A stretch of 21,491 nucleotides of DNA, taken from the IMG/VR virus record IMGVR_UViG_3300032213_002816, positions 1 through 21,491 of that record; one strand, 5' to 3'. Shown one piece after another: positions 1 through 20,340 of this stretch. The notes below the pieces were generated by a model that saw only the letters and a program-made list of their open reading frames with translations, was not told where the DNA came from and searched no databases. A program made the translations under genes and the position numbers. Source of the stretch: a virus. The first letter of the stretch is position 1. Every line of letters begins with the position of its first letter.

Positions 1-1711
1 ATTTAGATTTTATATTAATGGTGGTGCTAATGATGCACCTAATGGTAGTTTATTAGACAAACAATTTAATAATATAACAGCTACATTTGATGGAACTACA
101 TTTTATGGTTATGTCAATAATGTTCTTCGTGTAACATATGTAGGTGCAATTAACCAACAAAGAGGTCCATATCCTAACTTCTGTTTTAATGATACTGGAG
201 TAAATCAAGGATTAAAAGGTCTTGCATTAGTCAATTTCTATAATAATGCTTTAAGTCCATCAAATAGAACACAATTATATAATGATGGATTTGAAAGATT
301 AGGCACCATAAATGCTCCAGCTTCTTATGTTGACCTTTTAGAACCTACTTGCTATTCTGGCACTGGTTTAACTATTAATGATTTAGCTAATCCTGCAGTT
401 GACTGGAATATATCTGCTTCTGGAACTACTTATGATGGAACTATTGGTTCAATTGCATTAACCACACAAAGTATTGAAGCTAATGCACAGTTAATCAATA
501 CTGGTGATGGTCCTATCACTATTGCTGGTTGGGTTAATATTAATCAATATTCTTATGGAACTAGTTTTAACTGTATACCTGCTGTTGGAAAAGCATTAGG
601 TGGAAATCAATTTAAACAAATAGCATTATATGGCTCTGTTCCAAATGCTGTTGGTTTAGGTAACTGTTCTAATGGTTCTGGCTTTGTTTATGGCAATGTT
701 GAAAGTCCAATAAATACTTGGGTTTTTGTAGTTGTTAAGAAAAATACAGGACAAACAACGAGTCAATATAAAACTTATATTAATGGCTTACCAAATGAAG
801 CAGGTTCTGCTGGAGCTAATGTTACTACTTCTATTGCATATAATGGTACATTTTCATATGGTTTAATTAATGGAACTATTTTTGGTGAAGGTGCAGCTAA
901 TTTCCCAATGAAAGTATCTCAATACTGGATGTGGAATGCTTATCTTTCTGATGGTCAAATTTTAGATTTATATAATGCCACAAAGGGAAGATTTACACCT
1001 CCAATTGCAGAATACAGTCCTTTTGATAATGCTTCTTATCCAGGAACAGGTAATACTTGGTTCGATTTAAGTGCTAATAATAATGATTTAGCCTTATCCA
1101 ATCAAACATTTACTCCATCTCCAATTAAAAGTTTCACATTTACAAATGGAAGTGCATATAAAGCATCTCCAGCAAGTTTTCCAACAAATATTTTCACATT
1201 TGATGGATGGTTCAATTTTACTGGTAGCTCATCACAAATTTTATATGCTGGTGGTAAAGACGGTAGCGGAACTGGTGTTTTATTTGGTTATAAATTTTCA
1301 GGTGCTAACAGTAATAAACCTTTCTTTGAAATGGGTGGTGGAGTTGCAAGACTTAACTTAACATTAGACCCAACTCCAGGTGAATGGTACAACTATACGA
1401 TTACTGGTGATGGTACTAACGTTAAAGCTTATGTCAATGGAGTTTTAGATGTCTCTGCTTCTCAAGGTGGAGGTTCTATAAACAATACTACATATGGATT
1501 AATATTAGGACAGTTTATTGATGGTACTGGTGGACCTAGTGGTCTTTTCTATTCACCATCTTCTTTTGGTCAGTTCAATGTATATAACCAAGCTTTAGAT
1601 GCTGGAACTATTCTTCAAAACTATAACGACAATTTAATAAATTATATTCCTCCAGGACCTTCTAGTAATGGAGTAGGTGGAAGACAATTTGCACAGGGAT
1701 TTAACGGATAA
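1..1711 (+). CDS. LamG-repeat adhesin-like structural protein (5' partial)
   Basis: The reading frame is open from base 2 to the stop at 1709-1711, so 569 residues are visible and the N-terminus lies outside the window. The ATG at 908 is an internal Met in mid-domain, not the start. Three LamG/concanavalin-like units can be seen. Each has a strand of the type W/I-x-x-x-x-A/V-T-x-D/G-G-T...YVNNVL or YINGLP or YVNGVL, and each ends in a Y-N-x-A-L-x-x-x-x-I/R-x-x-x-Y-N signature (FYNNALSPSNRTQLYN; WNAYLSDGQILDLYN; VYNQALDAGTILQNYN). The first unit is incomplete at the left edge. The C-terminus is a short Gly/Ser/Pro tail. LamG-like jelly-rolls usually bind glycans or other surfaces, so this is probably a particle appendage (head fibre, whisker or side fibre). 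It lies upstream of the neck genes. The domain call is firm; the location on the particle is inference. Confidence 0.72.
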   Translation, partial: FRFYINGGANDAPNGSLLDKQFNNITATFDGTTFYGYVNNVLRVTYVGAINQQRGPYPNFCFNDTGVNQGLKGLALVNFYNNALSPSNRTQLYNDGFERLGTINAPASYVDLLEPTCYSGTGLTINDLANPAVDWNISASGTTYDGTIGSIALTTQSIEANAQLINTGDGPITIAGWVNINQYSYGTSFNCIPAVGKALGGNQFKQIALYGSVPNAVGLGNCSNGSGFVYGNVESPINTWVFVVVKKNTGQTTSQYKTYINGLPNEAGSAGANVTTSIAYNGTFSYGLINGTIFGEGAANFPMKVSQYWMWNAYLSDGQILDLYNATKGRFTPPIAEYSPFDNASYPGTGNTWFDLSANNNDLALSNQTFTPSPIKSFTFTNGSAYKASPASFPTNIFTFDGWFNFTGSSSQILYAGGKDGSGTGVLFGYKFSGANSNKPFFEMGGGVARLNLTLDPTPGEWYNYTITGDGTNVKAYVNGVLDVSASQGGGSINNTTYGLILGQFIDGTGGPSGLFYSPSSFGQFNVYNQALDAGTILQNYNDNLINYIPPGPSSNGVGGRQFAQGFNG

Positions 1712-1741
1712 TAAATTTAGCAACTTTAAGAGGATTTTATA

Positions 1742-4213
1742 ATGTTTTACGTCTTACAAAATGAATCAACAGCAGCATTAAGAAGAGTACCAATTCTCTT
1801 AACTGATGCTGCTACTGGTACAACTGCTCAAACTGGAGTGGCTATAACCAATATTTATCCTCAAGTAAATATTAACGGTGGAGCTTTTGCTGGTGGTGCA
1901 GGTACAGTTGCTGAAGCTGGTTACGGTCAATACTATTACCAATTTGATGCCTCTGAAGTTGCTACTTTAGGTTTAGCTGGTATCCATGTTACTGCAGTAG
2001 GATGTAGAGATTATGATGCTATATGTCAAGTAGCTGCATTTAACGTTTACTCTGCTTCAGGCGTTGGAATTACAGCAGCTGACGTGTGGAATTACGATAT
2101 TTCAGGTGTTGTTGGAGCAGGTTTAGCAGGAAGTCAGTTGAATGTTGCTGCAGCAGGCGGTGGAACAACTACTGGTGATATTGCAACAGCTGTATGGGAT
2201 TACGCTGGAGCTACTGTTCCTGCCACTGTTAAAGAAACACTTGAAACAGCTTCTACACAAGCTAGTAATGCTTCTTCACAAACTGGTTCTTCCGTTATTA
2301 GAGATGCTGTTTGGGATACAGACGTATCTTATCTCACTTCACCTCAAGCTGGAGCTGCATTATATCAAGCTGCTCTTGGAACAACTCTTAACGCACCTTC
2401 CGAAGTATGGTCTTATGTAACAAGAGAGATTACAGGTGGTACTGCAACAACTGTAACCAATGCTGTTCTTGTTGACACTGCGTCAATGTCAGGTATTGCT
2501 AATACGGTATGGTCAACACTTACTGCGCCTTACACAACACACGCAACCTTTGGACATAATATTTTACGTTCTGATAATGCTGCAACAATTGGTGAAGTTA
2601 CATTACATCAATCTGGTGGAAGTAAAAGAGTTGATGCAGATGTTCATGCATTTGTAAATAATACTGCTTCAGCCACTGCAATGTTAAATATCCTTACTGG
2701 TATTGGTGCTTCAATGACAACCAATATCACTGGAAACTTAAGTGGTTCAGTTGGTAGTGTAACAAATCCTGTTTCTGTTGCTACTGCTTCTATGTCTGGT
2801 ATAGCCAACACTATTTGGTCCACTGATATTTCTGGATATACTACTGCTGGAACTGCTGGTTCGCAACTTAACTTGGCTGCTGCGCCTTCTGGTGCTGGTA
2901 TTACTGCTGGTGACGTAACTAATGCAGTTTGGAATGTTGCAACTTCATCTTACACTACTTCAGGAACCTTTGGACATAATATTTTACGTTCAGATGTTGC
3001 TGGTACTGCTGGTACTGTATCATTATGGACTGGTGGTGCATATAGTGGTATATTTGCAGACACATACAGAATTGATGAAGATTATAATGCAGCTATTGCA
3101 TTAAAAGATATCCTTACTGGTATTGGTGCATCAATTACAGGCAATATTACTGGTGATTTAAGTGGAAGTGTTGGTTCTGTAACTGCTGATGTTAATGTTT
3201 CCACTGCAAGTATGAGTGGAATTGCTAATACAGTATGGTCAACTGATATTTCTGGTTACACTTCACCTTCTGCTGGTTTCGACCTTTCTAATGCTTCTTC
3301 TGGAGCTGGAATAACTGCTGGTGATGTTTGGAATTACACATTACTTTCAAGTGGACAATCTGCTGATACTACTCTTGGTAATGCAGATGACCAAGCTACA
3401 GGTGCAAATACTAACACTAACTCACCAACATTAGAGGCTAATATCTGGTCATATGCTACTCGTACATTAACAAGTTCATCTGCACCAACTGCAGCTGATA
3501 TTTGGAGTTATGCAGGTGGAAGAACTATTACTGGTGGTATTGTTACTACAGTTGGTGACAAAACTGGTTATTCTTTATCTAGCACTCAATCTTTTAATCT
3601 TACTGGTAATATTACTGGTAGCCTTTCTGGAAGTGTTGGAAGTGTAACAGGTTCAGTTGGTAGTGTAGTAGGCCCAGTATTAGTTGCAACAGCATCTATG
3701 TCAGGTATAGCTGGAACTGTTTGGACATATTCGCCAAGGACATTAACAAGTGGTGCAGGCTCAACTGCAGGTGATATTTGGAATTATAATATCTCTGGAA
3801 TTACTGCTTCTGGTACTGCTGGAGCAACCTTAAATGATGCCTCTGTATCTGGAAGTGTAGTTACTATTGTTAATGGTCCTTATAGATTAACCTCTATTGC
3901 TGAAGGCACTGATGGAAGAATTGATATCCTTGCTGATAGTGTTCAAACCATTCAACTTAACTGTTTAGATGGATTTGGGCAACCTTTTAACATTACTGGT
4001 TATAGTTGTTTAGTAAATGTTTATGACATTTCTGGAGCTTTAGCAGTTACCTATACTCCAACTGTTGACTTTGCATCAAGTGGTATAGTTAGCTTTGATA
4101 TTGATACTGATGTTACTGGAACAACTGGTAGATATACTCTTGTAGTAGAACTTACTGCTGGTGCTGAAGTAGTACAGCTTGGTCCTCTCGAAATATTGGT
4201 AAGACCACTCTAA
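1742..4213 (+). CDS. Modular Gly/Ser/Thr-rich repeat fibre protein
   Basis: This is an 823-residue protein with a strong Shine-Dalgarno site (AAGAGGA at 1728-1734, 7-nt spacing). The N-terminal ~110 residues look like a globular beta domain. The middle is built from recurrent modules: ASMSGIANTVW-type (four copies), NITGxLSGSVGSV-type (three), TFGHNILRSD (two), and D-V/I-W-N/S-Y units such as ADVWNYDISG and ADIWSYAGGRT. The last ~110 residues lose the repeats and resemble the Ig-like, BppU-N-type folds found in phage appendages (weak similarity by eye). No enzymatic motif is visible. Tandem repeats of this kind form shafts in phage fibres, and low-complexity D-V-W-N-Y repeats are frequent in phage structural proteins of unknown position. 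The stop overlaps the next start (taATG). Lying between a LamG protein and the neck gene, it could be a head or neck fibre. Function is inferred. Confidence 0.62.
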   Translation: MFYVLQNESTAALRRVPILLTDAATGTTAQTGVAITNIYPQVNINGGAFAGGAGTVAEAGYGQYYYQFDASEVATLGLAGIHVTAVGCRDYDAICQVAAFNVYSASGVGITAADVWNYDISGVVGAGLAGSQLNVAAAGGGTTTGDIATAVWDYAGATVPATVKETLETASTQASNASSQTGSSVIRDAVWDTDVSYLTSPQAGAALYQAALGTTLNAPSEVWSYVTREITGGTATTVTNAVLVDTASMSGIANTVWSTLTAPYTTHATFGHNILRSDNAATIGEVTLHQSGGSKRVDADVHAFVNNTASATAMLNILTGIGASMTTNITGNLSGSVGSVTNPVSVATASMSGIANTIWSTDISGYTTAGTAGSQLNLAAAPSGAGITAGDVTNAVWNVATSSYTTSGTFGHNILRSDVAGTAGTVSLWTGGAYSGIFADTYRIDEDYNAAIALKDILTGIGASITGNITGDLSGSVGSVTADVNVSTASMSGIANTVWSTDISGYTSPSAGFDLSNASSGAGITAGDVWNYTLLSSGQSADTTLGNADDQATGANTNTNSPTLEANIWSYATRTLTSSSAPTAADIWSYAGGRTITGGIVTTVGDKTGYSLSSTQSFNLTGNITGSLSGSVGSVTGSVGSVVGPVLVATASMSGIAGTVWTYSPRTLTSGAGSTAGDIWNYNISGITASGTAGATLNDASVSGSVVTIVNGPYRLTSIAEGTDGRIDILADSVQTIQLNCLDGFGQPFNITGYSCLVNVYDISGALAVTYTPTVDFASSGIVSFDIDTDVTGTTGRYTLVVELTAGAEVVQLGPLEILVRPL
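2545..3270 (+). repeat. In-frame tandem duplication, 420-bp period, inside the fibre gene
   Basis: A 27-bp stretch at 2545-2571 recurs identically at 2965-2991. A 22-bp stretch at 2689-2710 recurs at 3109-3130, and the Met codon of the ASMSGIA module recurs at 2792 and 3212. All three pairs are exactly 420 bp (140 codons) apart, so the segment is an in-frame tandem duplication that has since diverged. An additional related module with its Met at 2486 lies 306 bp before the one at 2792, consistent with a unit carrying an indel. Confidence 0.8.
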
Positions 4214-4620: not shown

Positions 4621-5097
4621 ATGAGTTTTGAACCATTAATTATTAGTAAGTGGATTTATGACACTTTGAGTGCTGATGTAACTTTAGCCACTCTTATTGC
4701 TGGTTCAAAAGCTCCATTTTATCAGCAAGGAATTTATTTAGAAGTAGCGCCTGAAAAAGATGCTGTATCTCAACAAATGCCTCAATTACCTTATGTTGTG
4801 TATTCAAGATTAGGTAGTGAGGGTTCCGATGAAACTGTTTTATGTGGAGATAGATATTACACTGTTCCACTATTTAGAATAACTGTATGGGACCAAAAGA
4901 ATGGAAGTATATCTTATTCTAGAGTAAAACAAATAATAGATAGAGTAGATGTACTTCTTGGAAAACAAACTGTAACTGTATCTGGTTTAACATTCTTAAG
5001 CCAGAGATACGATACTGATCAGCCGTTTGAGGTGGGTTCGGACGGCAGAGTCGATTATGGGTTGAGTTTACTATATAGATTCAACACCGCTATATAA
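4621..5097 (+). CDS. Tail terminator/completion protein (DUF3168-like)
   Basis: A 158-residue protein that starts on the base after the previous stop. It has the layout of the DUF3168/tail terminator family: an N-terminal amphipathic helix (ISKWIYDTLSADVTLATLI), then a QxPYVVYSRLGSE strand, a central strand with Y-x-x-P-L-F-R-I-T-V-W, a helix (YSRVKQIIDRVDVLLG) and a C-terminal segment ending YGLSLLYRF. Family members cap the tail tube and fix its length before it joins the head. Its neighbours, an HK97-gp10-like gene before and a tail tube gene after, fit the common order. The gene's last ~100 bases are visibly more GC-rich than the rest. The next gene's ribosome binding site overlaps this gene's stop region. 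Confidence 0.78.
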   Translation: MSFEPLIISKWIYDTLSADVTLATLIAGSKAPFYQQGIYLEVAPEKDAVSQQMPQLPYVVYSRLGSEGSDETVLCGDRYYTVPLFRITVWDQKNGSISYSRVKQIIDRVDVLLGKQTVTVSGLTFLSQRYDTDQPFEVGSDGRVDYGLSLLYRFNTAI

Positions 5098-6126: not shown

Positions 6127-7778
6127 TGACATTAGCAGAAGCAAACGTTAAATTTAGTAGTACTGGAGCAGACCAGGTTAAAGCTACTGCTGATGGAATT
6201 GGTAAATCTCTTGATTCAGTAGCAAAAAAAGCTGACAATGCTGGATTTAGCATTAAAAATATTGCTGCTGGAAATATAGTCAGTAATATTATTGAACGAT
6301 TAAGTGATAAAGCATTTGATTTAGGAAAAAACATTCTTGAAATGGGAATGAGTTTTGAAACTACTAATGCTCAATTTGAAGCATTAGGAATGAATGCAAA
6401 TACAACTAGAGACTTTATTGGTAAAGTTGCTGCTGCTTCTACATTAACTACTAAAGAACTTACAGCTCTTGCTCAATCTCTTCAATTATCAGGATTTAAT
6501 ATTTATAGAGTATTACCTGCTTTTGGAAAACTTGCAGATTTAGCAGGTAAAGACCAAGATAAATTGCAAGGAATGGTTAGACTATTAAATGTCTTAAAAA
6601 CTGGAGCAAGACCAGACCAAGAATTATTGCAAAGTCTTAAAATGCCTACTCTTTTATCAGAAGCTGGACTAAAATTTGATAAAGGTAAATTAGTTGGTGA
6701 TATTAATTCTGCATTAGAATCAGTTATTAAAGTTATTGAAAGTAAAACTGGAAAAGTATCTCAAGCTTTAGGTAAGACTTTTGAAGCTTCTTTTTCATCT
6801 TTAGTAGACCAATTTGATAAAATTAAAGAAACATTAGGAAGTAGAATTCTTAGCTGGGCAAAACCTTGGGTTGATGGCTTAACTACTGTACTTAAAGCAA
6901 TGACATCAAGTGGTATTTGGGAAAGATTTTTAAACCAATTTTTCTTATATGGTGATAATGCAAATAAAAATCTTAAAGATGGTTTATTAAATAAAGAAAC
7001 TTTATTTGCAGTTTCAAACTTTATAGTAGATATACTAACTAAATTAGCATTCCTACCAGCAAGAATTCAAGTTATTTTTAAAGAAATAGTTCCTATGATG
7101 AAAGAGATTTTTTCTAATCTCAAAGAAGACCCTACAATCAAAGGTTTTTTAACAGTTTTTGAATTAATTGGAAAACAAGCAAAAACAAATGCTTACAATG
7201 AAAGATTTCAACAAACAAGAGAAAAATTATTCAAAGCTGGTCAAGTCAAAACTTTAAATATGTCTGACGATGTAGATAAAAAAATAATTGAAATGACAAT
7301 GCAGCTTGAAGATAGAAGAGGAAAAGGAATTGGTGCAAGTAAAGGTGTTGCACAAAAATTACTTGATATAGATGAAAGAGAAAGAAGAACTAAAAATATT
7401 GAACAATTAAAAGCACGTTCAGCTATTTTAGGTATGGGATTAGAACCTCCAGTTGTAGGTAAAGGTAAAGTTACACTACCTGGAACTAAAACTGGTGATG
7501 ATACTGAAGTCAATAAACCCAAAAAGACAAAAGATACTAGTCTTCTTGAACTAATCGTACAAAATACACAAAAAGCTAATGAGCTAACCTTAAGAAATAT
7601 GACTTATGGTGGTGGTCAGTTAGCTGCTGAAGGTGTATCATCTGTTCAAATGGCAAATTATAGAACTGTATCAAGTCCAAGAATAAATGCTACAAATGAC
7701 ATGGTTCGTGGTGTTAAGAAAGAAGTAAACGCAACAATAGGATCTAATTTTCTCAACTTTAGTCCACGGAGATCATAA
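6126..7778 (+). CDS. Tail tape measure protein
   Basis: This 550-residue protein follows the frameshifted chaperone and has the features of a tape measure: an N-terminal helical segment of VKFSSTGADQVKATADGIGKSL type, a hydrophobic/amphipathic region (roughly residues 40-75), and a conserved-looking stretch (ALGMNANTTRDFIGKVAAASTLTTKELTALAQSL) like the tape-measure N-terminal domain. Long helices and charged coiled-coil-like segments occur around residues 330-440, with a Lys-rich linker near 450-470. GGAG at 6115-6118 with 7-nt spacing supports the ATG that overlaps the chaperone stop. In known phages the protein sets tail length and is ejected with DNA. At about 0.15 nm per residue it would correspond to a short tail of very roughly 80 nm. 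No lysozyme or peptidase domain is recognisable. Confidence 0.85.
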   Translation: MTLAEANVKFSSTGADQVKATADGIGKSLDSVAKKADNAGFSIKNIAAGNIVSNIIERLSDKAFDLGKNILEMGMSFETTNAQFEALGMNANTTRDFIGKVAAASTLTTKELTALAQSLQLSGFNIYRVLPAFGKLADLAGKDQDKLQGMVRLLNVLKTGARPDQELLQSLKMPTLLSEAGLKFDKGKLVGDINSALESVIKVIESKTGKVSQALGKTFEASFSSLVDQFDKIKETLGSRILSWAKPWVDGLTTVLKAMTSSGIWERFLNQFFLYGDNANKNLKDGLLNKETLFAVSNFIVDILTKLAFLPARIQVIFKEIVPMMKEIFSNLKEDPTIKGFLTVFELIGKQAKTNAYNERFQQTREKLFKAGQVKTLNMSDDVDKKIIEMTMQLEDRRGKGIGASKGVAQKLLDIDERERRTKNIEQLKARSAILGMGLEPPVVGKGKVTLPGTKTGDDTEVNKPKKTKDTSLLELIVQNTQKANELTLRNMTYGGGQLAAEGVSSVQMANYRTVSSPRINATNDMVRGVKKEVNATIGSNFLNFSPRRS

Positions 7779-11704: not shown

Positions 11705-14691
11705 TGCCTAGCCCACCATCATTTACTGGAACATACTACGATGATATTACTACTGCAAGATTATCAAATCTTACATTTCTAGGCATATTTGATATTAAAA
11801 TTCTTGCAGTAGACCCATCATTTGCTAGACCTCCAGAATTTTATGAATATGAAAGATATGTAGATAGAGTGTTTATTGGAAATCATTTTGGTTTCCAATA
11901 TCATTTTACTTTTGGTTTGATTCTTAAAGGTTCTGCTGATGTACCTAATTTTGGATTATGGAGATGGACTTTCGTATGTGATGTAGATATTGTTTTTCCA
12001 GATGGATATGTTAAATCAGAAAGAGTTATCTTAGGTTCTGAATTAGTTGACCCATTAGTATATAACTATAAAGAAGTTTCTTTTCCAGTTACATTTACTA
12101 TCACAAGATTTAATTTACCATCATCACCATATGTAAATTTATTTGAAGATACATTTTATGGTATGCATCCTCCATTTACTACTTTAGATTTGTATGAAAA
12201 AATTGCTAGTGGCAATGAATTTCTTTTAAGAGTTGAAGTATTTGGTTTAACTGGAGGTATTGTTCAAGAAGCTGACCATAATTTAACATCAGATGCATAC
12301 ACTGACTACGAATATACCATAAATACCAAGTTACACTCTAAAGGTTCTACTGCAGGTGTTCAAGGATTGCAATTAACTAATTTAAATATTAATGGACTTC
12401 CTATTACAGACTATACATATTTACACGTCGTAGATTCTAATAATTATTTTTATCAAACATCTTCAGTTGATGCGAAGGTTCAAGGGACTGATGATATTTT
12501 TGGTGGTTCAGTTTACAACTTTATAGAAGCAAATACTCTTGTTACAATGGAAAGAAATATCAAAAACAAGGGCATTATTCATTCTTGGCAAAGTTCTTAT
12601 CCTGATGATTTAGATGTAACTATTTCTAAATTTGATACTACTGGAAGAACTATAACTGTTCCTGGTGGAGAGTTCACAGAAGAAGAACTTTGGCAAAAAT
12701 ATAGTTTTGATTCAAATATTGAAATAGCAGGTACACCTAATAATCAAAGTTTAGCATTTAATAATTTACCAACAGGATATATTCAAAATACAATATCTTC
12801 TGCATCTTTAATTGCTAATGGTGATTTTGCTGGAGCTACTAGATTACCCTTTAGAGCTTGGTGGAAACCTGGTGCAGATATATATCATTCAAAAAATACC
12901 ATTCTTGCTGGTTCTGGTAATTCTCGTACTTATAACTCACCTAATAGAAATAATTTCTCTGGATATCGTTATTTAGATGTTACAGGTGGAAGTGCAACAA
13001 CATCTCCAGAAGCAGGAAAATTATTAATTACTTCTGATGGCTCCAATGTAATAATTGAAAAAGATTTAGTTTGGAATACTGGTTCTCAAACTAAAAGAAT
13101 AGATTTGTGTTTTGGTGGTTTAGCTCATACTAACTTCCCAGATTTACAAGGACAAGATAATCCATATCCTAGATATAATGCTAGTTATCCTCCAGCAGCT
13201 TCAGGTGCTCGTATAGTTAATCAAGATATGTACGGTATTGGACAAGTAGGGTCTTTAATTGCTACTGGAAACGTTAATATTTCGCAGTTTAAATTGACTA
13301 GAGAGGATAACACTGCTAAAGCATCTTTTGTAGCTCCATTTGCTGGTAATCAAGCAAATGCTGGTTCAACTAATAATGGTTTTGTTAAAGTACAAACCGA
13401 TTCAATTAATAGACAATATTTTGGAAGACGATTTTGGGAACAAGATATGTCTGGTAAAAATGAAGAAGAGTATGACTTGTTACAAGAATTAACTCTTGAT
13501 GGAATTGCAGTAGCAACAACTGTTAAATTATCTGTTCAAGACTTATGCGACAATATAAACAATAGAGTTGGTTATCAAGGTGGAAAAATACATACTGGAT
13601 GGACTGCTTCTGGTTCTTATAATCCAAGTTCTAGTCCAGGTTATTTAACTTATTGTTTTGACAAAGATAATGCATATGCTTCTTGGTTAAATGGTTTTGG
13701 AGTGCAGAATGCTTCTGGAGCACAAAACTTCAGTATCTTAAGGGATTTAAGCCAAGAATCAGGTGATAAAGATGTCTATACTCAAATGATATTCGACCGT
13801 ATCAACTGTAATTATCCACCAGATTATTTTGACCCATTTCAATTAGAAGCTCCAGGTGAAACACAACTTCTTCTTTATAGTTTTAGTTGTTTAAGGTCAG
13901 TTGCTCATGGATTAGTGCAAGAGCAACAACTTGGAGAAACAGTTAACTTAGAAGATACAAGTGGAAATATATTTGGTCAAGGTATTACTGATGTAGTTGG
14001 AAGTTATCAAACTGGATTACCTGGTGGATTACCTGAAAATGCAGCTAGGATTGGTTATTCAACTGGAACTATTCCAATAACTAAACTCTTTACTGCTAAG
14101 AGGTTTAGAGGTGCTTTTTATGTAATTCCAGTACCAGTTGGAGTTAACATACTTTCTGCTGATATTAGTGGCTTTTATCAGGGTTGTATTGGCACTATTA
14201 ATATGACTGATGTTGATTTAATATTCTCTTCAACTCCAGACTTTTCCACTTTTGATACATTGTCTACTAACATTACTGGTATGTCTAATGTTGCTATAGC
14301 TTGGTTACGTCCAACAAATAGTAATCAAATGATATTAGCAACTCAAAGGGAATCTGATTCTGCGATAATAAGATATGTATTGGATGACTTTGTAAATGGA
14401 GTTGCAAGTATGGGTACAGTTATAGGAAATGGTTCAACGCCAGCAATAGCTATTAATGGAAATGGTACTCAAATAATATTTTGGAGAACATCTTCTTCTA
14501 ATGTTGCAAGGATTATTATTGATAGTGCTGGAAATATTACCACTGCAGCTTCAAACGTAGTAACTGGTAATGTTAGTGATTCAGGTTTAGGATGCTACTG
14601 GCTTGATGACGAGGTTTTCTTAGTTTACAACCATACAGTTAATGGACTTACAGTGGTCAAGTCAGATGATTATGGACAAACTTTTAGCTAA
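11704..14691 (+). CDS. Large distal tail / fibre protein with C-terminal propeller-like region
   Basis: This 995-residue protein starts at an ATG overlapping the upstream stop (taATG). No family is recognised for the first ~750 residues, which are Tyr/Phe/Asn/Gly-rich and beta-predicted, typical of tail-tip and fibre proteins. The last ~200 residues have the rhythm of a beta-propeller (repeats such as NVAIAWLRPTNSNQMILATQRE, then TPAIAINGNGTQIIFWRTSS, then CYWLDDEVFLVYN). The protein ends three residues after an Asp-box-like motif (S-D-D-Y-G-Q-T-F), the BNR signature of sialidase-type propellers. It is the last tail gene before the lysin, a usual place for the receptor-binding or host-contact protein. 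No catalytic sialidase Arg triad or Tyr/Glu pair was identified, so enzymatic activity is not claimed. Confidence 0.6.
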   Translation: MPSPPSFTGTYYDDITTARLSNLTFLGIFDIKILAVDPSFARPPEFYEYERYVDRVFIGNHFGFQYHFTFGLILKGSADVPNFGLWRWTFVCDVDIVFPDGYVKSERVILGSELVDPLVYNYKEVSFPVTFTITRFNLPSSPYVNLFEDTFYGMHPPFTTLDLYEKIASGNEFLLRVEVFGLTGGIVQEADHNLTSDAYTDYEYTINTKLHSKGSTAGVQGLQLTNLNINGLPITDYTYLHVVDSNNYFYQTSSVDAKVQGTDDIFGGSVYNFIEANTLVTMERNIKNKGIIHSWQSSYPDDLDVTISKFDTTGRTITVPGGEFTEEELWQKYSFDSNIEIAGTPNNQSLAFNNLPTGYIQNTISSASLIANGDFAGATRLPFRAWWKPGADIYHSKNTILAGSGNSRTYNSPNRNNFSGYRYLDVTGGSATTSPEAGKLLITSDGSNVIIEKDLVWNTGSQTKRIDLCFGGLAHTNFPDLQGQDNPYPRYNASYPPAASGARIVNQDMYGIGQVGSLIATGNVNISQFKLTREDNTAKASFVAPFAGNQANAGSTNNGFVKVQTDSINRQYFGRRFWEQDMSGKNEEEYDLLQELTLDGIAVATTVKLSVQDLCDNINNRVGYQGGKIHTGWTASGSYNPSSSPGYLTYCFDKDNAYASWLNGFGVQNASGAQNFSILRDLSQESGDKDVYTQMIFDRINCNYPPDYFDPFQLEAPGETQLLLYSFSCLRSVAHGLVQEQQLGETVNLEDTSGNIFGQGITDVVGSYQTGLPGGLPENAARIGYSTGTIPITKLFTAKRFRGAFYVIPVPVGVNILSADISGFYQGCIGTINMTDVDLIFSSTPDFSTFDTLSTNITGMSNVAIAWLRPTNSNQMILATQRESDSAIIRYVLDDFVNGVASMGTVIGNGSTPAIAINGNGTQIIFWRTSSSNVARIIIDSAGNITTAASNVVTGNVSDSGLGCYWLDDEVFLVYNHTVNGLTVVKSDDYGQTFS

Positions 14692-14742: not shown

Positions 14743-14757
14743 GAGTTGGAGTGTTCA

Positions 14758-15330
14758 ATGATTATAACAGCTTTATACTATACTATTCCAAACCAGGTGT
14801 CAAGTAAAATGCAAAAAGAAATAGCTTTATTAGCAGCAGATGATGCAGTGTTAAACATTGGAGTAACTGAATCAAGTATAGACAATTTCGGTCCTGCCAT
14901 TAAAAAATACTTAGCATCAGTAAACCTCGAAGAAGGATTTGCGTGGTGCTGCGGTTTTGTAAAGTATAGATTTATCAATGCAGCTGAAAAACTAGACTTA
15001 ACCCTATCTAAGGAATTTCTTAAGCTTGACGGCTGGTCCCCATCCTGGAAAAAATATGCTGAAAAACACAATGTTTGGACATCTTTAGAGGAAGCTAAAG
15101 CCAATCCATCAATTGTCAAAAAAGGACACGTTATTCTCTTTTATTCTGCTGAAAAGAAACGTATTTATCATGCTGGAATTGTCATCTCTTCAAATGAAAG
15201 TGGAGTTGTTACCTGCGAGGGTAACACAGGACCTGGTCCTGGAGTAACAGCTAATGGTGATGGAGTATATTTAAAAAGAAGAAGTTGGACTTCTATTGGA
15301 ACACTTGGAGGTTTTTTAAGAACATATTGA
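14758..15330 (+). CDS. CHAP/NlpC-P60-like peptidoglycan hydrolase (endolysin candidate)
   Basis: This 190-residue protein probably cuts peptidoglycan as a cysteine peptidase or amidase. The motif FAWCCGFVKY places the candidate nucleophile at Cys64 or Cys65. An Asp-Gly-W-x-x-x-W...A segment follows, then GHVILFY and HAGIVIS give the candidate catalytic His138, with TCEGNTGPG (Glu154, Asn156) as the usual third position and turn. This Cys...His...E-G-N pattern is typical of CHAP-like phage lysins. The start is placed at ATG 14758 because GGAG at 14748-14751 lies 6 nt upstream; a TTG four codons earlier (14746) would bury that site. There is no signal peptide or transmembrane segment and no separate wall-binding domain. 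No holin gene lies beside it in the window. It could instead be a virion-associated hydrolase. Confidence 0.8.
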   Translation: MIITALYYTIPNQVSSKMQKEIALLAADDAVLNIGVTESSIDNFGPAIKKYLASVNLEEGFAWCCGFVKYRFINAAEKLDLTLSKEFLKLDGWSPSWKKYAEKHNVWTSLEEAKANPSIVKKGHVILFYSAEKKRIYHAGIVISSNESGVVTCEGNTGPGPGVTANGDGVYLKRRSWTSIGTLGGFLRTY

Positions 15331-15410: not shown

Positions 15411-15620
15411 TTATGAGATATGAACCTGAACGAACTCTTGTATTTTATCATCATTTTTTACTAATGCAAGAGAGTGCTTTAAATAAATACGGTCAAGTAA
15501 ATCACAACACTTTTCAATCTTCTTTTTTATTTCAATGTCCCAAAGACGTTGTTCTTCATCCCATTTAGAATCAAACTCATCTAACCAACATTTGTCATCT
15601 TTTTCAATTTCAGTGTTCAA
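15411..15620 (-). CDS. Small charged helical protein, unknown function (TTG start)
   Basis: This is a 69-residue leftward ORF rich in Asp, Glu and Lys with Trp and Cys (segments such as CWLDEFDSKWDEEQRLW and IEKCCDLLDRIYLKH), predicted to be mostly helical. It contains no internal Met. The only start seen is TTG at 15618-15620, with a weak AGAAG about 9 nt upstream. Support for a real gene is its protein-like composition and the bidirectional terminator right after its stop. Against it are the non-ATG start, no obvious promoter and a competing 51-codon ORF on the + strand (15413-15568). No family is recognised. If real, it is a single-gene accessory insertion (moron-like) between the lysin and the iteron region. 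Confidence 0.42.
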   Translation of the reverse strand: MNTEIEKDDKCWLDEFDSKWDEEQRLWDIEIKKKIEKCCDLLDRIYLKHSLALVKNDDKIQEFVQVHIS

Positions 15621-15792
15621 ATCATTTCTTCTTTCAGTTTAACTACCAACAGATTCATCATACCATACCCAATTCTCTAGAGGGTGGAATTCCTATTCAA
15701 ATGAGGGCAAAGCCCTCTTCTTTTGTTTCAATTTGTTTTAAGGTGCTTAAAGAATGCTTAAACAAGAGAATGAATATTTAGCCTAAGAAACG
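15621..15792. other. Intergenic region before the iteron array
   Basis: About 170 bases with no convincing gene. It contains the rightward terminator at 15703-15730, two isolated TTCAAAT motifs related to the iteron core (starting at 15616 and 15694), and a short direct repeat GCTTAAA (twice, 10 bp apart, near 15745-15761). A 10-codon ATG ORF at 15753 is too short to call. Confidence 0.5.
15703..15730 (+). terminator. Rho-independent terminator, rightward
   Basis: A perfect 6-bp GC-rich stem (15703-15708 with 15712-15717) with an AAA loop is followed by a pyrimidine-rich tract (TTCTTTTGTTTC). It may be a second barrier that isolates the downstream iteron/promoter region from read-through of the tail/lysin operon, or it may end a short rightward transcript from the 15400-15700 interval. 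Confidence 0.65.
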
Positions 15793-15960
15793 TTCAAATA
15801 GACAAAAGTTATTTGAAAAAATATTGTCACTTATTTGAATGTTTATTCGTACTTATTTGAAAGAATATTACCACTTATTTGAAAAGTATTATTCAAATAA
15901 AAAGGGATATTTGTTTGACACGCAGAAGAGTATGATATAGTTATTTGAAAGGATATTATG
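15793..15960 (+). repeat. 22-bp iteron array, bounded by inverted copies
   Basis: The core TTATTTGAA starts at 15809, 15831, 15853 and 15875, exactly 22 bp apart. A fifth copy at 15941 is 66 bp (3 x 22) further on. The surrounding bases agree too: each unit reads roughly A-C/G-TTATTTGAA, a short variable stretch, then an A/T-rich ATATT-like end. Inverted copies (TTCAAATA at 15793-15800; TTCAAATAA at 15892-15900) flank the four-unit block, forming inverted repeats with spacers of 9 and 8 nt. The fifth unit contains the ribosome binding site of the next gene. Two helical turns per unit suggest a protein filament binding one DNA face: replication origin, centromere or operator. Confidence 0.88.
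15915..15941 (+). promoter_or_regulatory. Putative sigma70-type promoter for the AT-hook gene
   Basis: A perfect -35 hexamer TTGACA lies at 15915-15920, between the fourth and fifth iterons. The -10 is weaker: TATAGT at 15936-15941 (15-nt spacer) or TAGTTA at 15938-15943 (17-nt spacer). Transcripts would begin near 15950, just at the ribosome binding site. Iteron units on both sides, and one overlapping the -10 region, suggest control by whatever binds them. Confidence 0.5.
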
Positions 15961-15962
15961 AA

Positions 15963-16868
15963 ATGTTTGAACACAGTTACGACCCTTGGAAATGGAATGT
16001 CAAAGAAGAATTAAAAGAAGACCAACTTTTTGCTAATTTTTCACACGCAGTAATTCAAAGGATTTCTAAAGATGATTTGAATGTTGTTAAGAGCTATAAA
16101 GGAATTCCAGGTTTAAAAGAAAACTTCCATATGCGTTCTACTAATAATGGTAACCGAGAGTTTTCTAAACTTTGGCCTTGGCTTAATCAACAAATAAACA
16201 GTGGAGTCTATAACAAGTATATGACCACTAAAGACTTTCTTAGTGATGAATATATTGAAATCTTAGAAAACTACATTGACAGATACATTCTTCCATATTG
16301 CAAAAAAGTTAATTTAAAAAAATATGTTGAACCAATTGTTGAAGAACCAATTGTTGAAGAACCAATTGTTGAAGAAGTAATAATTGAAAAGCCCATAGTT
16401 GAAAAACATAAATCAAATGCTGGTAGACCAAAAGGTAGCAAGAACAAAAAACAAGCAAAAGAAATGTTTATGCCAACTTATAGAATTGGTACTATTGATG
16501 GAAACGTAGATATTGATTCTTTTATTAAAGCTATTGCTGACTTAGTGTGGAGAAAAGAAGGACAAATAGATTCTTTCTATATTCATAATCTTGTTCTTAG
16601 TGATTCACATAAAAAGTATATCAACTATCTTTTTATGAAAAACCAATCTACATTAGAAAATAAATATTGGAAAATAGTTAAAAAAGGTAAAGCAAACATT
16701 CTTATGCCAAAAATGAGAAGGTCTGGTTATTATGGATGTGCACAAGGTAAGTATGATTTATTTGGACTTACATATATTTCTGAAATGTCTAATATTTCAA
16801 AAGATACTTTATTCTATAGACTAAAACATATGAGTATCAAAGTAGCAACAAAAAACCCTGGTGAATAA
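15963..16868 (+). CDS. AT-hook / HTH DNA-binding protein, unknown role
   Basis: This 301-residue protein starts at ATG 15963, preceded by AAAGGA at 15948-15953 (9-nt spacing). An in-frame TTG at 15945 would precede that site and is less likely. The N-terminal ~110 residues form an unknown helical domain rich in Trp, Asn and charged residues. Residues ~122-147 are a Pro-Ile-Val-Glu-Glu repeat linker, followed by an AT-hook (GRPKGSKNKK, from Gly154). A C-terminal domain ends in an HTH-like segment (YDLFGLTYISEMSNISKDTLFYRLKHMSIKVA region), the type seen in phage DNA-binding proteins and next to HNH/AP2 proteins. No nuclease or polymerase motif is seen. The iteron array directly upstream makes this product the prime candidate to bind it, as an origin-binding, partition or autoregulatory protein. 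That link is inference. Confidence 0.65.
   Translation: MFEHSYDPWKWNVKEELKEDQLFANFSHAVIQRISKDDLNVVKSYKGIPGLKENFHMRSTNNGNREFSKLWPWLNQQINSGVYNKYMTTKDFLSDEYIEILENYIDRYILPYCKKVNLKKYVEPIVEEPIVEEPIVEEVIIEKPIVEKHKSNAGRPKGSKNKKQAKEMFMPTYRIGTIDGNVDIDSFIKAIADLVWRKEGQIDSFYIHNLVLSDSHKKYINYLFMKNQSTLENKYWKIVKKGKANILMPKMRRSGYYGCAQGKYDLFGLTYISEMSNISKDTLFYRLKHMSIKVATKNPGE
16329..16373 (+). repeat. Three perfect 15-bp tandem repeats (Pro-Ile-Val-Glu-Glu linker)
   Basis: GAACCAATTGTTGAA occurs three times in tandem without mismatch, then decays into related units encoding EVIIEKPIVEK. The unit length is a multiple of three, so copy-number change keeps the frame and alters only the linker between the N-terminal domain and the AT-hook. 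Confidence 0.9.
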
Positions 16869-17652: not shown

Positions 17653-17861
17653 AGAGAAAAGATTTATTAATCACAGAACTTACTCAAATGGAAATAGCAG
17701 AAAGGGTAGGTGTCGCTCAACCATTAATAAGTAGATGGTTCTCTGGTAAATGTATGCCAAGACCAGAAACCATTAAAAGAATCGCTACTGCATTGAATAT
17801 CGAAGAACGAGAATTACTACTATATCTATATGACAAGCATCAAAACCTGGCAAGATTATAA
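17649..17861 (+). CDS. XRE (Cro/C1)-type HTH transcriptional regulator
   Basis: This 70-residue protein consists of little more than one Cro/C1-type helix-turn-helix: LTQMEIAERVGVAQPLISRWF (helix 2, turn, recognition helix with the S-R-W-x-S-G-K ending), then PRPETIKRIATALNI. There is no dimerisation or cleavage domain, so it is Cro-like in size. It overlaps the upstream gene by 4 nt (ATGA) and the sigma gene by 32 nt, so all three belong to one operon. It probably binds the palindromic site at 17404-17423 or the GGTATA-type repeats in the divergent promoter region. This assignment to a target is inference. The HTH call itself is firm. Confidence 0.85.
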   Translation: MKRKDLLITELTQMEIAERVGVAQPLISRWFSGKCMPRPETIKRIATALNIEERELLLYLYDKHQNLARL

Positions 17862-18606
17862 ATACTCTAGGAAGTTAAATCCTGGATATCCTAATCTTGC
17901 TCAGGATAGGTTTTTGCATTCACAATTAGAAACAAGACATAGACAAAAAGCACTCGATGAAATAATAAACATAAATATGTCTCAAGTTAACAAACTATGC
18001 AAACAATATTCCTGGTGTAATATTGACTTTGAAGATTTACAACAATATGCAATAGAAGGAATTATAGCTGCAGCAGATAACTATAAACCTGATAGTGGAA
18101 ATAAGTTTAGTACACTAGCTTATCATTACATTTTAGGACGTATTAGAAGAGCTATAGAACAATACAATCACCTTATTAAAATCCCAGCTCATATAAATCT
18201 TGCTAAACTAAGAATAAACCACCTTGACTTAGAAAAAGAAATACTAGATGAAGAGTTATTACCATTAGTAACAGAAAAATATTCCCTATATACTTTACGC
18301 CAAGCAATAATAGCCAAGAATATTAAAATACAAGAGTTCGACCCAACTTATGATGTTGATGTAGAGTTTGTCCAAGATGAAACAATAGAGATAAACATTT
18401 CTATTAATCAAATACTTTCCACACTTAGACCTATTGATATTAAATGCATAGAGTTATATTTTGGCCTTAATGGAAACAAATCACATTTTTATAAAGAAAT
18501 AGATAAGATGCTTGAAATAGACTCAGAAGGCATAATCAAAAGAGCACTAGTAAAACTATCAAATATTAGTGGAATTGAATCGTTTTTGGAATACTTAAAG
18601 AAATGA
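17830..18606 (+). CDS. Phage-encoded sigma70-family sigma factor
   Basis: This 258-residue protein has the sigma70 layout. Region 2 covers about residues 40-112, with IDFEDLQQYAIEGIIAAADNYKP (regions 2.1-2.2), then GNKFSTLAYHYILGRIRRAIE (regions 2.3-2.4, matching the bacterial G-x-x-F-S-T-Y-A...I-R-x-A-I pattern). A region 3.0-like IKIPAHINLAKLRI follows at 116-129. A shorter, diverged region 4 lies at about 193-250 (LSTLRPIDIKCIELYFGLNG, then a helix pair ending RALVKLSNI). Region 1.1 is absent, as usual for alternative and phage sigmas. It overlaps the XRE gene by 32 nt, has only a weak ribosome binding site (coupled translation) and overlaps terS by 4 nt. It probably directs host RNA polymerase to late promoters, standing where ArpU/RinA-type late activators lie in other phages. 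Confidence 0.84.
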   Translation: MTSIKTWQDYKYSRKLNPGYPNLAQDRFLHSQLETRHRQKALDEIININMSQVNKLCKQYSWCNIDFEDLQQYAIEGIIAAADNYKPDSGNKFSTLAYHYILGRIRRAIEQYNHLIKIPAHINLAKLRINHLDLEKEILDEELLPLVTEKYSLYTLRQAIIAKNIKIQEFDPTYDVDVEFVQDETIEINISINQILSTLRPIDIKCIELYFGLNGNKSHFYKEIDKMLEIDSEGIIKRALVKLSNISGIESFLEYLKK

Positions 18607-19034
18607 GCATTAATCAACAAAAACAGATAAGTGACAAGGAATCTGAATGTGTAGCTTTGTTGATAGCTGGAAAAACTATTACAGAAGTTTCTAGAATTAC
18701 CAATACTGCTAAGAGTACAGTTTCTAGATATAAAGATAATTTGATTGATGGTAAATATGATACCCAATTGACTAAAGTTCAAAATAATATGGGTGAGATT
18801 ATAGCAAATAGTCTTCTTGTTCATTTAGAAGCCATGAATACTATAGCAAGAGTAGCAACAGATGAAAATTACATCCAACAACAAGATGCAAAATCCATTG
18901 GAGAACTACATAACCAACTTAGAGCTTGGTCAATGGACATTCTCACGGCAGGAAGCAACCTCAAGAGCACAGTTTCTTCCGAATCAGAACCAGAACTCAT
19001 TGAAGCCTATATCGAGCCAGAAGATAAAGTTTAA
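18603..19034 (+). CDS. terS: Terminase small subunit
   Basis: This 143-residue protein lies directly before the large terminase and overlaps the sigma gene by 4 nt (ATGA). The N-terminal ~50 residues hold a helix-turn-helix (DKESECVALLIAGKTITEVSR, then NTAKSTVSRYKDNL), as in small terminases that recognise the packaging site. The middle (residues ~55-110) is helical, including ANSLLVHLEAMNTIARVAT and SIGELHNQLRAWSMDIL, suited to ring oligomerisation. The acidic tail (SESEPELIEAYIEPEDKV) is of the kind that contacts TerL. The last ~170 bases overlap the possible 5' end of terL in another frame and use more C/G third positions than the rest of the phage. The call comes from HTH plus helical architecture and position. 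Confidence 0.8.
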   Translation: MSINQQKQISDKESECVALLIAGKTITEVSRITNTAKSTVSRYKDNLIDGKYDTQLTKVQNNMGEIIANSLLVHLEAMNTIARVATDENYIQQQDAKSIGELHNQLRAWSMDILTAGSNLKSTVSSESEPELIEAYIEPEDKV

Positions 19035-20340
19035 AAATAAATATATTGAGTTTTTATATCAAACAAGCCCAAGAGCTTTCAAATTTAACTACAAACATAT
19101 AGAACTATTATCTGAAGTTTTATTAAAAGTATTCAATGGAGAAATTAAAAGATTAATTATAACGATGCCGCCTAGACATGCAAAGAGCGAAACAGTAACA
19201 ATGAGATTTGCCGCTTTTTGGATGCAATATAAAGATAATCAAAATGTTCTTGTTGCTGGCTATAATCAAAATATTGGACGCAGATTTTCAAGACGTACTA
19301 GAAATATATTGATGGAAAGAACAGGTTTAAATAATAACCATCAATCTATCGATGAATGGTCTACTCCAAACAACTCAACTTATTATGTCGGTTCAGTAAA
19401 TAATTCTCGCACAGGTATCGGATTTAACTTAATATTACTTGATGATATGATTAAGAGTCGAGAGGAAGCTAATAGTCCTCTAATACGTCAAAGATTGGAA
19501 GAATTTTATAGTGAGGACCTGTATTCTAGGCTTGAACCTAATGGCACCTTAATAATTACACAAACAAGATGGCACGAAAATGATGTAGTCGCTTATGCAA
19601 TGTCTAAAGAACCTGAAGGCTGGACAGTGATTAATTTACCAGCTTTAGCAGAAGATGAAAACGATATATTAGGAAGAAAGATTGACGAACCACTATGGCC
19701 AGAACGTTATAATCAGGAAACATTATTTGGGATTCGTAGTGTTCTTGGAGACTATTCCTTTCAAGCTCTCTACCAAGGCCGACCTACTTCAAGAGATGGT
19801 GACTTTTTTAAACCAAACAACATCAGCATTAAAAACATTCCTGAAAAAATTATTAGAAAAGTACGAGCTTATGATGTGGCCAATTCGCAAGGAAAAGGCG
19901 ATTATACTGTGTCGGCCTTACTTGGAATTGATGATAAAGAACATTATTGGATTCTTGATTTATGGCGAGCTCAATTAGGAACCAAAGAACGTGATGAAAA
20001 AATACTTGAAACAGCAATTAAAGATGGTCAGGATGTTAAAATAATTCTTCCCAATGACCCTGCAGCCGGGAAGAGTATGACATTTTACTGGACAAAACTT
20101 CTTGCAGGTTTTAATGTTGTTTTTGAGAGGCCTACTAACTCTAAAGAATCAAGGGCAACGGCATTTAGTGTGCAGGTAAATAATGGAAATGTTTCTATGA
20201 TGCAAGGAAATTGGAATTATGATATGATAAATGAGTTAAGGTCGTTTCCAAGTTCTAAACATGATGACCAAATAGATGCGCTAAGTTCTGGTTTCAATGA
20301 CTTAGCAATTAAAATCACAAGAAAGTTCCGTGCAATATAA
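18862..20340 (+). CDS. terL: Terminase large subunit (ATPase-nuclease)
   Basis: This is the packaging motor: ATPase plus headful/cos nuclease. Numbered from ATG 18862 (492 residues), it has a Walker A-like PPRHAKSE (103-110), Walker B ILLDD (191-195) followed by MIKSREEA, and the coupling segment TQTRWHEND (233-241). The RNase H-like nuclease acids are Asp338 (AYDVANSQGKGDYT), Asp399 (LPNDPAAGKS) and the HDDQIDALS cluster (467-475). The start is uncertain. ATG 18862 (weak AAGAG 9 nt upstream) and ATG 18886 both lie deep inside terS, and there is no ATG between terS and the conserved region. Non-AUG initiation near 19024-19047 or coupling by frameshift from terS are alternatives; a start there gives about 430-440 residues, closer to relatives. 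Function is certain; the N-terminus is not. Confidence 0.93.
   Translation: MKITSNNKMQNPLENYITNLELGQWTFSRQEATSRAQFLPNQNQNSLKPISSQKIKFKNKYIEFLYQTSPRAFKFNYKHIELLSEVLLKVFNGEIKRLIITMPPRHAKSETVTMRFAAFWMQYKDNQNVLVAGYNQNIGRRFSRRTRNILMERTGLNNNHQSIDEWSTPNNSTYYVGSVNNSRTGIGFNLILLDDMIKSREEANSPLIRQRLEEFYSEDLYSRLEPNGTLIITQTRWHENDVVAYAMSKEPEGWTVINLPALAEDENDILGRKIDEPLWPERYNQETLFGIRSVLGDYSFQALYQGRPTSRDGDFFKPNNISIKNIPEKIIRKVRAYDVANSQGKGDYTVSALLGIDDKEHYWILDLWRAQLGTKERDEKILETAIKDGQDVKIILPNDPAAGKSMTFYWTKLLAGFNVVFERPTNSKESRATAFSVQVNNGNVSMMQGNWNYDMINELRSFPSSKHDDQIDALSSGFNDLAIKITRKFRAI

Follow-up and report, generated by a model that had tools for sequence, protein, structure and literature searches.

A phased 22-bp repeat array that changes together with the adjacent AT-hook protein gene in small tailed phages: a candidate iteron cassette

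What is the role of a phased set of short repeats that stands directly ahead of a gene of no recognised family in a small phage? The window analysed here is an entire contig (21,491 bp) from a viral metagenome and belongs to a tailed phage. Its tail genes are followed by an endolysin gene (14746-15330), a small minus-strand open reading frame (15411..15620), the repeat array and the gene of an AT-hook protein (15963-16868). After these come a minus-strand gene, an XRE regulator, a sigma factor, TerS, TerL, an HNH gene and a truncated portal gene. The small open reading frame, which is divergent and lies across the array from the AT-hook gene, has homologues in the relatives L036 and L037. The sigma factor between the XRE regulator and TerS is phage-encoded (17830-18606; PHROG 351, 1e-26) and is retained in close relatives whose contigs span that region. 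A host search with the portal protein in bacterial genomes gave no match.

The core TTATTTGAA is found exactly on the plus strand at 15809, 15831, 15853 and 15875. These 22-bp steps define direct units 1 to 4 (15809..15830, 15831..15852, 15853..15874 and 15875..15891). A fifth exact core begins at 15941, 66 bp (3 x 22) from that of unit 4. Two inverted cores on the minus strand bound the four units. The right one (TTCAAATAA, 15892..15900) is exact and forms an inverted repeat with unit 4 around an 8-bp centre; the left one (TTCAAATA, reverse complement TATTTGAA, 15793..15800) has one mismatch (8/9 bases, TTCAAATAg). Both lie out of the 22-bp register of the direct units, by +16 on the left and +17 on the right. 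Of the layout given in the preliminary description, the four units, the in-phase fifth, the TTGACA (15915-15920) and the overlap of unit five with the ribosome site are all present. The bounding inverted cores are there as well, but the left copy is imperfect and neither shares the phasing. At the left edge, ATATTTAGCCTAAGA (15774..15788, plus strand) is conserved; it is largely common to the L064 and L056 arrays, and the alignment has an invariant ATATTTAG block at its start.

Only one further exact core occurs in the 21.5-kb contig, at 12139. The lag-22 score over three 9-bp units of the window is 9/9, the next-best lag reaches 5/9, and none of 500 dinucleotide-preserving shuffles matches the lag-22 value. 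The array region is around 70-80% AT throughout, and no separate AT-rich unwinding element stands out. The view that this is an ordered array and not low-complexity AT sequence is upheld by the shuffles and by the retention of an array with the AT-hook gene in relatives. A search of viral contigs for the exact window array returned no match.

The TTGACA belongs to TTGTTTGACA (15911..15920, plus strand), in which a -35-like hexamer coincides with the exact core of the arrays in L005 and L036 (type A, below). It is the sole exact copy of that core in the window contig, and its meaning is ambiguous. An extended -10-like element, TGATATAGT (TGaTATAGT, 15933..15941, plus strand, with TATAGT at 15936-15941), is predicted from the sequence 15 bp from the TTGACA, and similar TG-n-TAT elements can be read upstream of the AT-hook gene in L005, L036, L056 and L064. 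Unit 5 (15941..15962, plus strand, core TTATTTGAA) ends at the ATG (15963) and spans the last -10 base, the likely start site and the Shine-Dalgarno AAGGA. L056 carries its own core, TGTAAGAA, in the unit-five position at the ribosome site; L064 has its core in the array and none at the promoter. An operator-type site overlapping the promoter or ribosome site of its own gene is found in the window and L056, not in L064, and repression through it is a prediction.

The gene downstream (15963..16868, plus strand) encodes a type B protein of 301 residues, which we propose as the binder of the array. Its AT-hook core GRPKGSKNKK occupies residues 154-163 (16422..16451, plus strand), and GRPKGS is invariant in all homologues (two in L036, and one each in L005, L056 and L064). 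An AlphaFold2 model built from four sequences predicts a C-terminal winged-helix-like unit (residues ~184-249) followed by a short HTH (~256-297; together 16512..16853, plus strand). The block pLDDT is 74-88 at residues 171-250 and lower beyond; the N-terminal part is helical at low confidence. The protein has no match in Pfam, PHROG or NCBIfam, Rep families there included, which agrees with its first description as an AT-hook/HTH protein outside recognised families, the HTH being weak. Foldseek with the low-confidence model found no significant match, and the best match of the family profile in the PDB, an HMG-I/Y AT-hook, is not significant (E 0.085). Neither the protein nor its alignment found a relative in viral contigs, genome contigs, or phage and plasmid records. 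Just N-terminal of the AT-hook, the window gene contains an in-frame 15-bp tandem repeat (16329-16376, EPIVE repeated) that is absent from L056.

Relatives were reached through neighbouring genes. The terminase led to L005 and L006 (93%), the sigma factor to L035, L036 and L037 (84-85%), the portal to L056 and a sigma alignment to L064. The sample consists of few genomes. By appearance, the L005 contig (30,048 bp, 392-bp end overlap at 97%) and the L037 contig (32,125 bp, 154-bp overlap at 98%) are near-complete circles; those of the window, L036, L056 and L064 are incomplete. The window AT-hook protein shares 52% identity with that of L056, 49% with that of L064 and 56% with the product of a truncated second gene in L036. 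Its identity to the first L036 protein and the L005 protein is 30-32%. The latter two constitute type A; the window, L056, L064 and second L036 proteins constitute type B.

In four lineages (L005/L006, L036, L056 and L064), the same locus holds an AT-hook homologue and, upstream of its gene, an array of 22-bp period that is flanked by inverted copies; the left inverted copy of the window has a counterpart in L005, L036, L056 and L064, each with its own core. The L005/L006 array consists of an inverted copy, four direct units spaced by 22, 22 and 22 bp, and an inverted copy, with the core GTCAAACAA. L036 has the same order and core, and GTCAAACAAATAAT is conserved in all four of its units. The L064 array begins with inverted ATTGCTACA and continues with three copies of TGTAGCAAT at 7693, 7715 and 7737. 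In L056, inverted TTCTTACA at 4779 precedes TATAAGA, TATAATA and TATAAGA (TATAAGAA/TATAATAC/TATAAGAA) in 22-bp steps. The lag-22 score is 9/9, with no shuffle reaching it, in four of the five arrays; L056 is degenerate, at 6/9, and 18 of 2000 shuffles are as good. In L037, where the AT-hook gene is absent, no 22-bp periodicity is seen (346/500 shuffles as good). The comparison with related phages that had been suggested at the outset, under which absent or unphased repeats beside a retained gene would have spoken against the pairing, came out in its favour: in these relatives the full-length gene is accompanied by an array that is phased at 22 bp and flanked by an inverted copy, in degenerate form in L056, and the gene-less L037 has no array. 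We considered an opposite direction of the array in L005 and L036 relative to the window and dropped it; all direct units read as a core ending in AA and then an AT-rich block, and the direction is probably the same.

When sought in viral contigs, the L005/L036 core array was found in those contigs only. No second cluster of sites occurs elsewhere in any contig, and almost no exact core lies outside the array locus. This points to a local device, not a genome-wide silencer, and leaves the silencing module suggested in the preliminary description without specific support.

The arrays differ in a specific manner. In the alignment of the type B arrays (window, L056 and L064), the left edge ATATTTAG and an AATATT-like block between the cores are shared and the cores differ. 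From one B-type array to another, all exact copies of the core change simultaneously, the inverted copy among them. Copying of tandem units by slippage does not explain a left inverted copy that changes along with the direct units; selection for recognition by a co-changing protein would. The array follows the grouping of the AT-hook gene only, which places the window, L056 and L064 together (B) and L005 with L036 (A). The sigma and XRE alleles group the window with L036 and L037, as against L005, L056 and L064, and TerS groups the window with L005, L036 with L056, and L064 with L037. TerS/TerL (window 18603-20340 and relatives) form three allele groups exchanged between genomes that are alike in other respects, with TerS identities of 40-54% between groups and 82-90% within them. 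As judged from these groupings, the genomes are mosaics in which the TerS, TerL, sigma and XRE genes have been shuffled.

In L036, a type A gene and its array stand ahead of a type B gene that has lost its first ~130-150 residues. This truncated gene has neither a B-type array nor a unit-five core (TTGTACGAA; TTGTACGAAAGGATATT against TTATTTGAAAGGATATT), as expected if the array and the full-length protein are kept together. Sequence comparison establishes the co-occurrence of array and gene, their shared locus, the 22-bp spacing and their joint change, and points to a matched pair of sites and protein.

What would such a pair do? With 22-bp units, inverted copies and a unit over the start of the gene itself, the layout is one known from iteron replicons and from cooperative operators. 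We give an even chance to the reading that the array is an iteron-type origin with its cognate initiator, autoregulated through unit five. The locus would, with the same balanced confidence, be a self-contained iteron cassette of a small (~30-kb) tailed phage, with the binder gene directly downstream. The AT-hook would grip the AT-rich minor groove and the winged helix/HTH would read the core. Adjacent protein molecules would fill successive units, spaced by about two turns and lying on nearly the same face of the helix. The nucleoprotein complex would then open adjacent AT-rich DNA and recruit the host replisome, the array serving as replication origin and the protein as initiator. Surplus protein would occupy unit five, at the promoter and ribosome site of its own gene, and stop its own synthesis.

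The window and its relatives have tandem direct repeats in the 17-22 bp range of iterons, regularly spaced at 22 bp, and the putative binder gene adjoins the repeats and co-varies with them. Gene content adds to this. L037, in other respects closely related, has, in place of the array and the AT-hook gene, an AAA_25 (RepA/DnaB-like) ATPase gene (824-1747, minus strand; PF13481, 3e-26) whose product matches helicase and helicase-primase families of PHROG. The distantly related L060 encodes a homologue of this ATPase (27% over 209 residues) upstream of the terminase gene. Among the open reading frames of the near-complete L005, no other recognisable replication gene was found. Together, these three observations tilt the reading towards replication, although the phage may replicate by host factors alone, which makes the absence of another replication gene weak evidence. 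The preliminary description had offered an origin and initiator as one possibility; the tie between array and gene is secured by the comparison, and origin function is favoured, at even probability. That the protein represents a new phage initiator family, with an AT-hook and winged helix/HTH unlike known Rep and O proteins, 22-bp iterons that switch with it and a locus swappable with a RepA/DnaB-like ATPase module, we rate slightly below even.

Other features speak against the origin reading. The protein has no match to an initiator family, and its winged-helix model has no significant structural counterpart. The intergenic regions of the arrays, that of the window included, contain no exact DnaA box except TTATACACA in L064 at 7816; such a box is not required by all iteron replicons. 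This box lies on the minus strand within a region of L064 (7790-7850), downstream of the array, that holds a second repeat of ~26 bp in two copies (TATAACTATATTCGTTATT / TATAACTATATTTGTTATT). GC skew in the near-complete relatives is uninformative, with no clear turn at the array in L005. The position of unit five over the promoter counts against the origin reading, because pure regulation fits it equally well.

A purely transcriptional role is the strongest rival, one that we consider plausible and place clearly short of even. The AT-hook/HTH protein would be a cooperative autorepressor or an early/late switch, perhaps acting as an immunity repressor; the array would be its upstream multi-site operator, and unit five the operator at its own promoter. 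Unit five overlaps the -10 end, the likely start site and the Shine-Dalgarno; L056 keeps its own core there, and the truncated, array-less B gene of L036 has none. The locus is next to an XRE regulator and a sigma factor, and cluster A mycobacteriophages offer a precedent for co-diversifying repressor and operator specificity (PMC6550527). Against this role, L064 retains the upstream units with no promoter-proximal core, and no contig has a second cluster of sites. No integrase was found, which makes lysogeny doubtful. A transcriptional role also does not explain the replacement by a helicase-like ATPase in L037, and it leaves L005 with no replication gene.

It is very unlikely that the protein is the DNA-binding part of a homing-endonuclease system and the array its target. 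The A-type C-termini, with their HTH, do resemble the HNH endonuclease family PHROG 3377 weakly (~2e-4), and GIY-YIG genes occur downstream in L005 and L064. However, the window and L036 have no nuclease at this place, and a homing target is usually a single position in an empty allele, whereas here a phased array with a changing core is kept beside the gene. Equally improbable is a partition centromere, a parC/parS-like array through which the AT-hook protein would segregate the phage genome, as the preliminary description had also proposed. In parC-type loci, as here, phased direct repeats lie ahead of the gene that encodes their binder, but no ParA, ParM or TubZ-type motor was found in the window or the near-complete relatives, and the sole ParB-like match is a 126-residue nuclease-like protein confined to L005/L006. 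We rejected partition on comparison and gene content. A packaging (pac/cos) site for the small terminase, ~2.7 kb upstream of terS, is the least probable of all and was rejected, for although packaging sites can be marked by repeat arrays and the terminase genes are nearby, the window and L005 share TerS (90%) and TerL (93%) yet differ in their arrays, L005 and L036 share an array core with TerS only 41% identical, and the TerS grouping contradicts the array grouping.

Two further observations concern the surroundings of the AT-hook genes. The leaders of the A-type genes (L036, 7650-7745; L005, 6862-6950) have very stable predicted folds, of -33.5 kcal/mol each (z -5.8 and -5.2). Each contains a long hairpin, whose TTGCAAG loop region is common to both, and an outer helix that pairs the Shine-Dalgarno, and an alternative pairing would give a pseudoknot. 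No Rfam family matched at gathering thresholds, these leaders included. In the models, the folds look like translational control. The GIY-YIG nuclease gene of the L005 contig (L045, 12113-12643) directly follows the A-type AT-hook gene, and its homologue in L064 (8838-9281) follows the B-type gene; both are comparable to the origin-directed nuclease Odn of phage ICP1.

If the origin-and-initiator reading is true, these close phages offer, at one locus, a natural series of protein/site pairs, three or four at the least, in which the geometry is fixed and the recognition sequence differs. This would be a rare setting for testing how initiator or repressor specificity evolves and what drives it, be it incompatibility, immunity, satellites or origin-targeting nucleases. 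The missing replication module would thereby be identified for a group of very small tailed phages that encode no other recognisable replication protein.

The locus resembles iteron origins (R6K/pi, pPS10/RepA, F, P1 and RK2) in its several direct repeats and predicted winged-helix binder, and its 22-bp unit is that of R6K and pPS10. Iteron plasmids are also known to carry inverted copies at the rep operator and to be autoregulated. Unlike the plasmid proteins, the phage protein matches no Pfam or NCBIfam Rep family and has an AT-hook, and an exact DnaA box is present in L064 only. The 22-bp iterons of R6K and pPS10 are bound by winged-helix Rep proteins, and cooperative binding depends on helical spacing (PMC4980987). 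As in lambda O/ori and PLE RepA/ori, specific pairs appear to be exchanged as modules. The lambda iterons lie inside the O gene, whereas those of the window precede the binder gene, and the 22-bp units differ from the ~30-bp PLE iterons. No sequence relation to the lambda O or PLE RepA systems was found. In the PLE of Vibrio cholerae, the phage nuclease Odn, a mimic of RepA specificity, is evaded when the iterons or the replication module as a whole are changed (PMC8263062). The repressor and stoperators of cluster A mycobacteriophages diversify together in specificity (PMC6550527), as binder and sites do here; the stoperators are scattered genome-wide, whereas the phage array is one phased locus. 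By analogy, the cassette may work like an iteron replicon or a repressor-operator set, and we claim its membership in neither.
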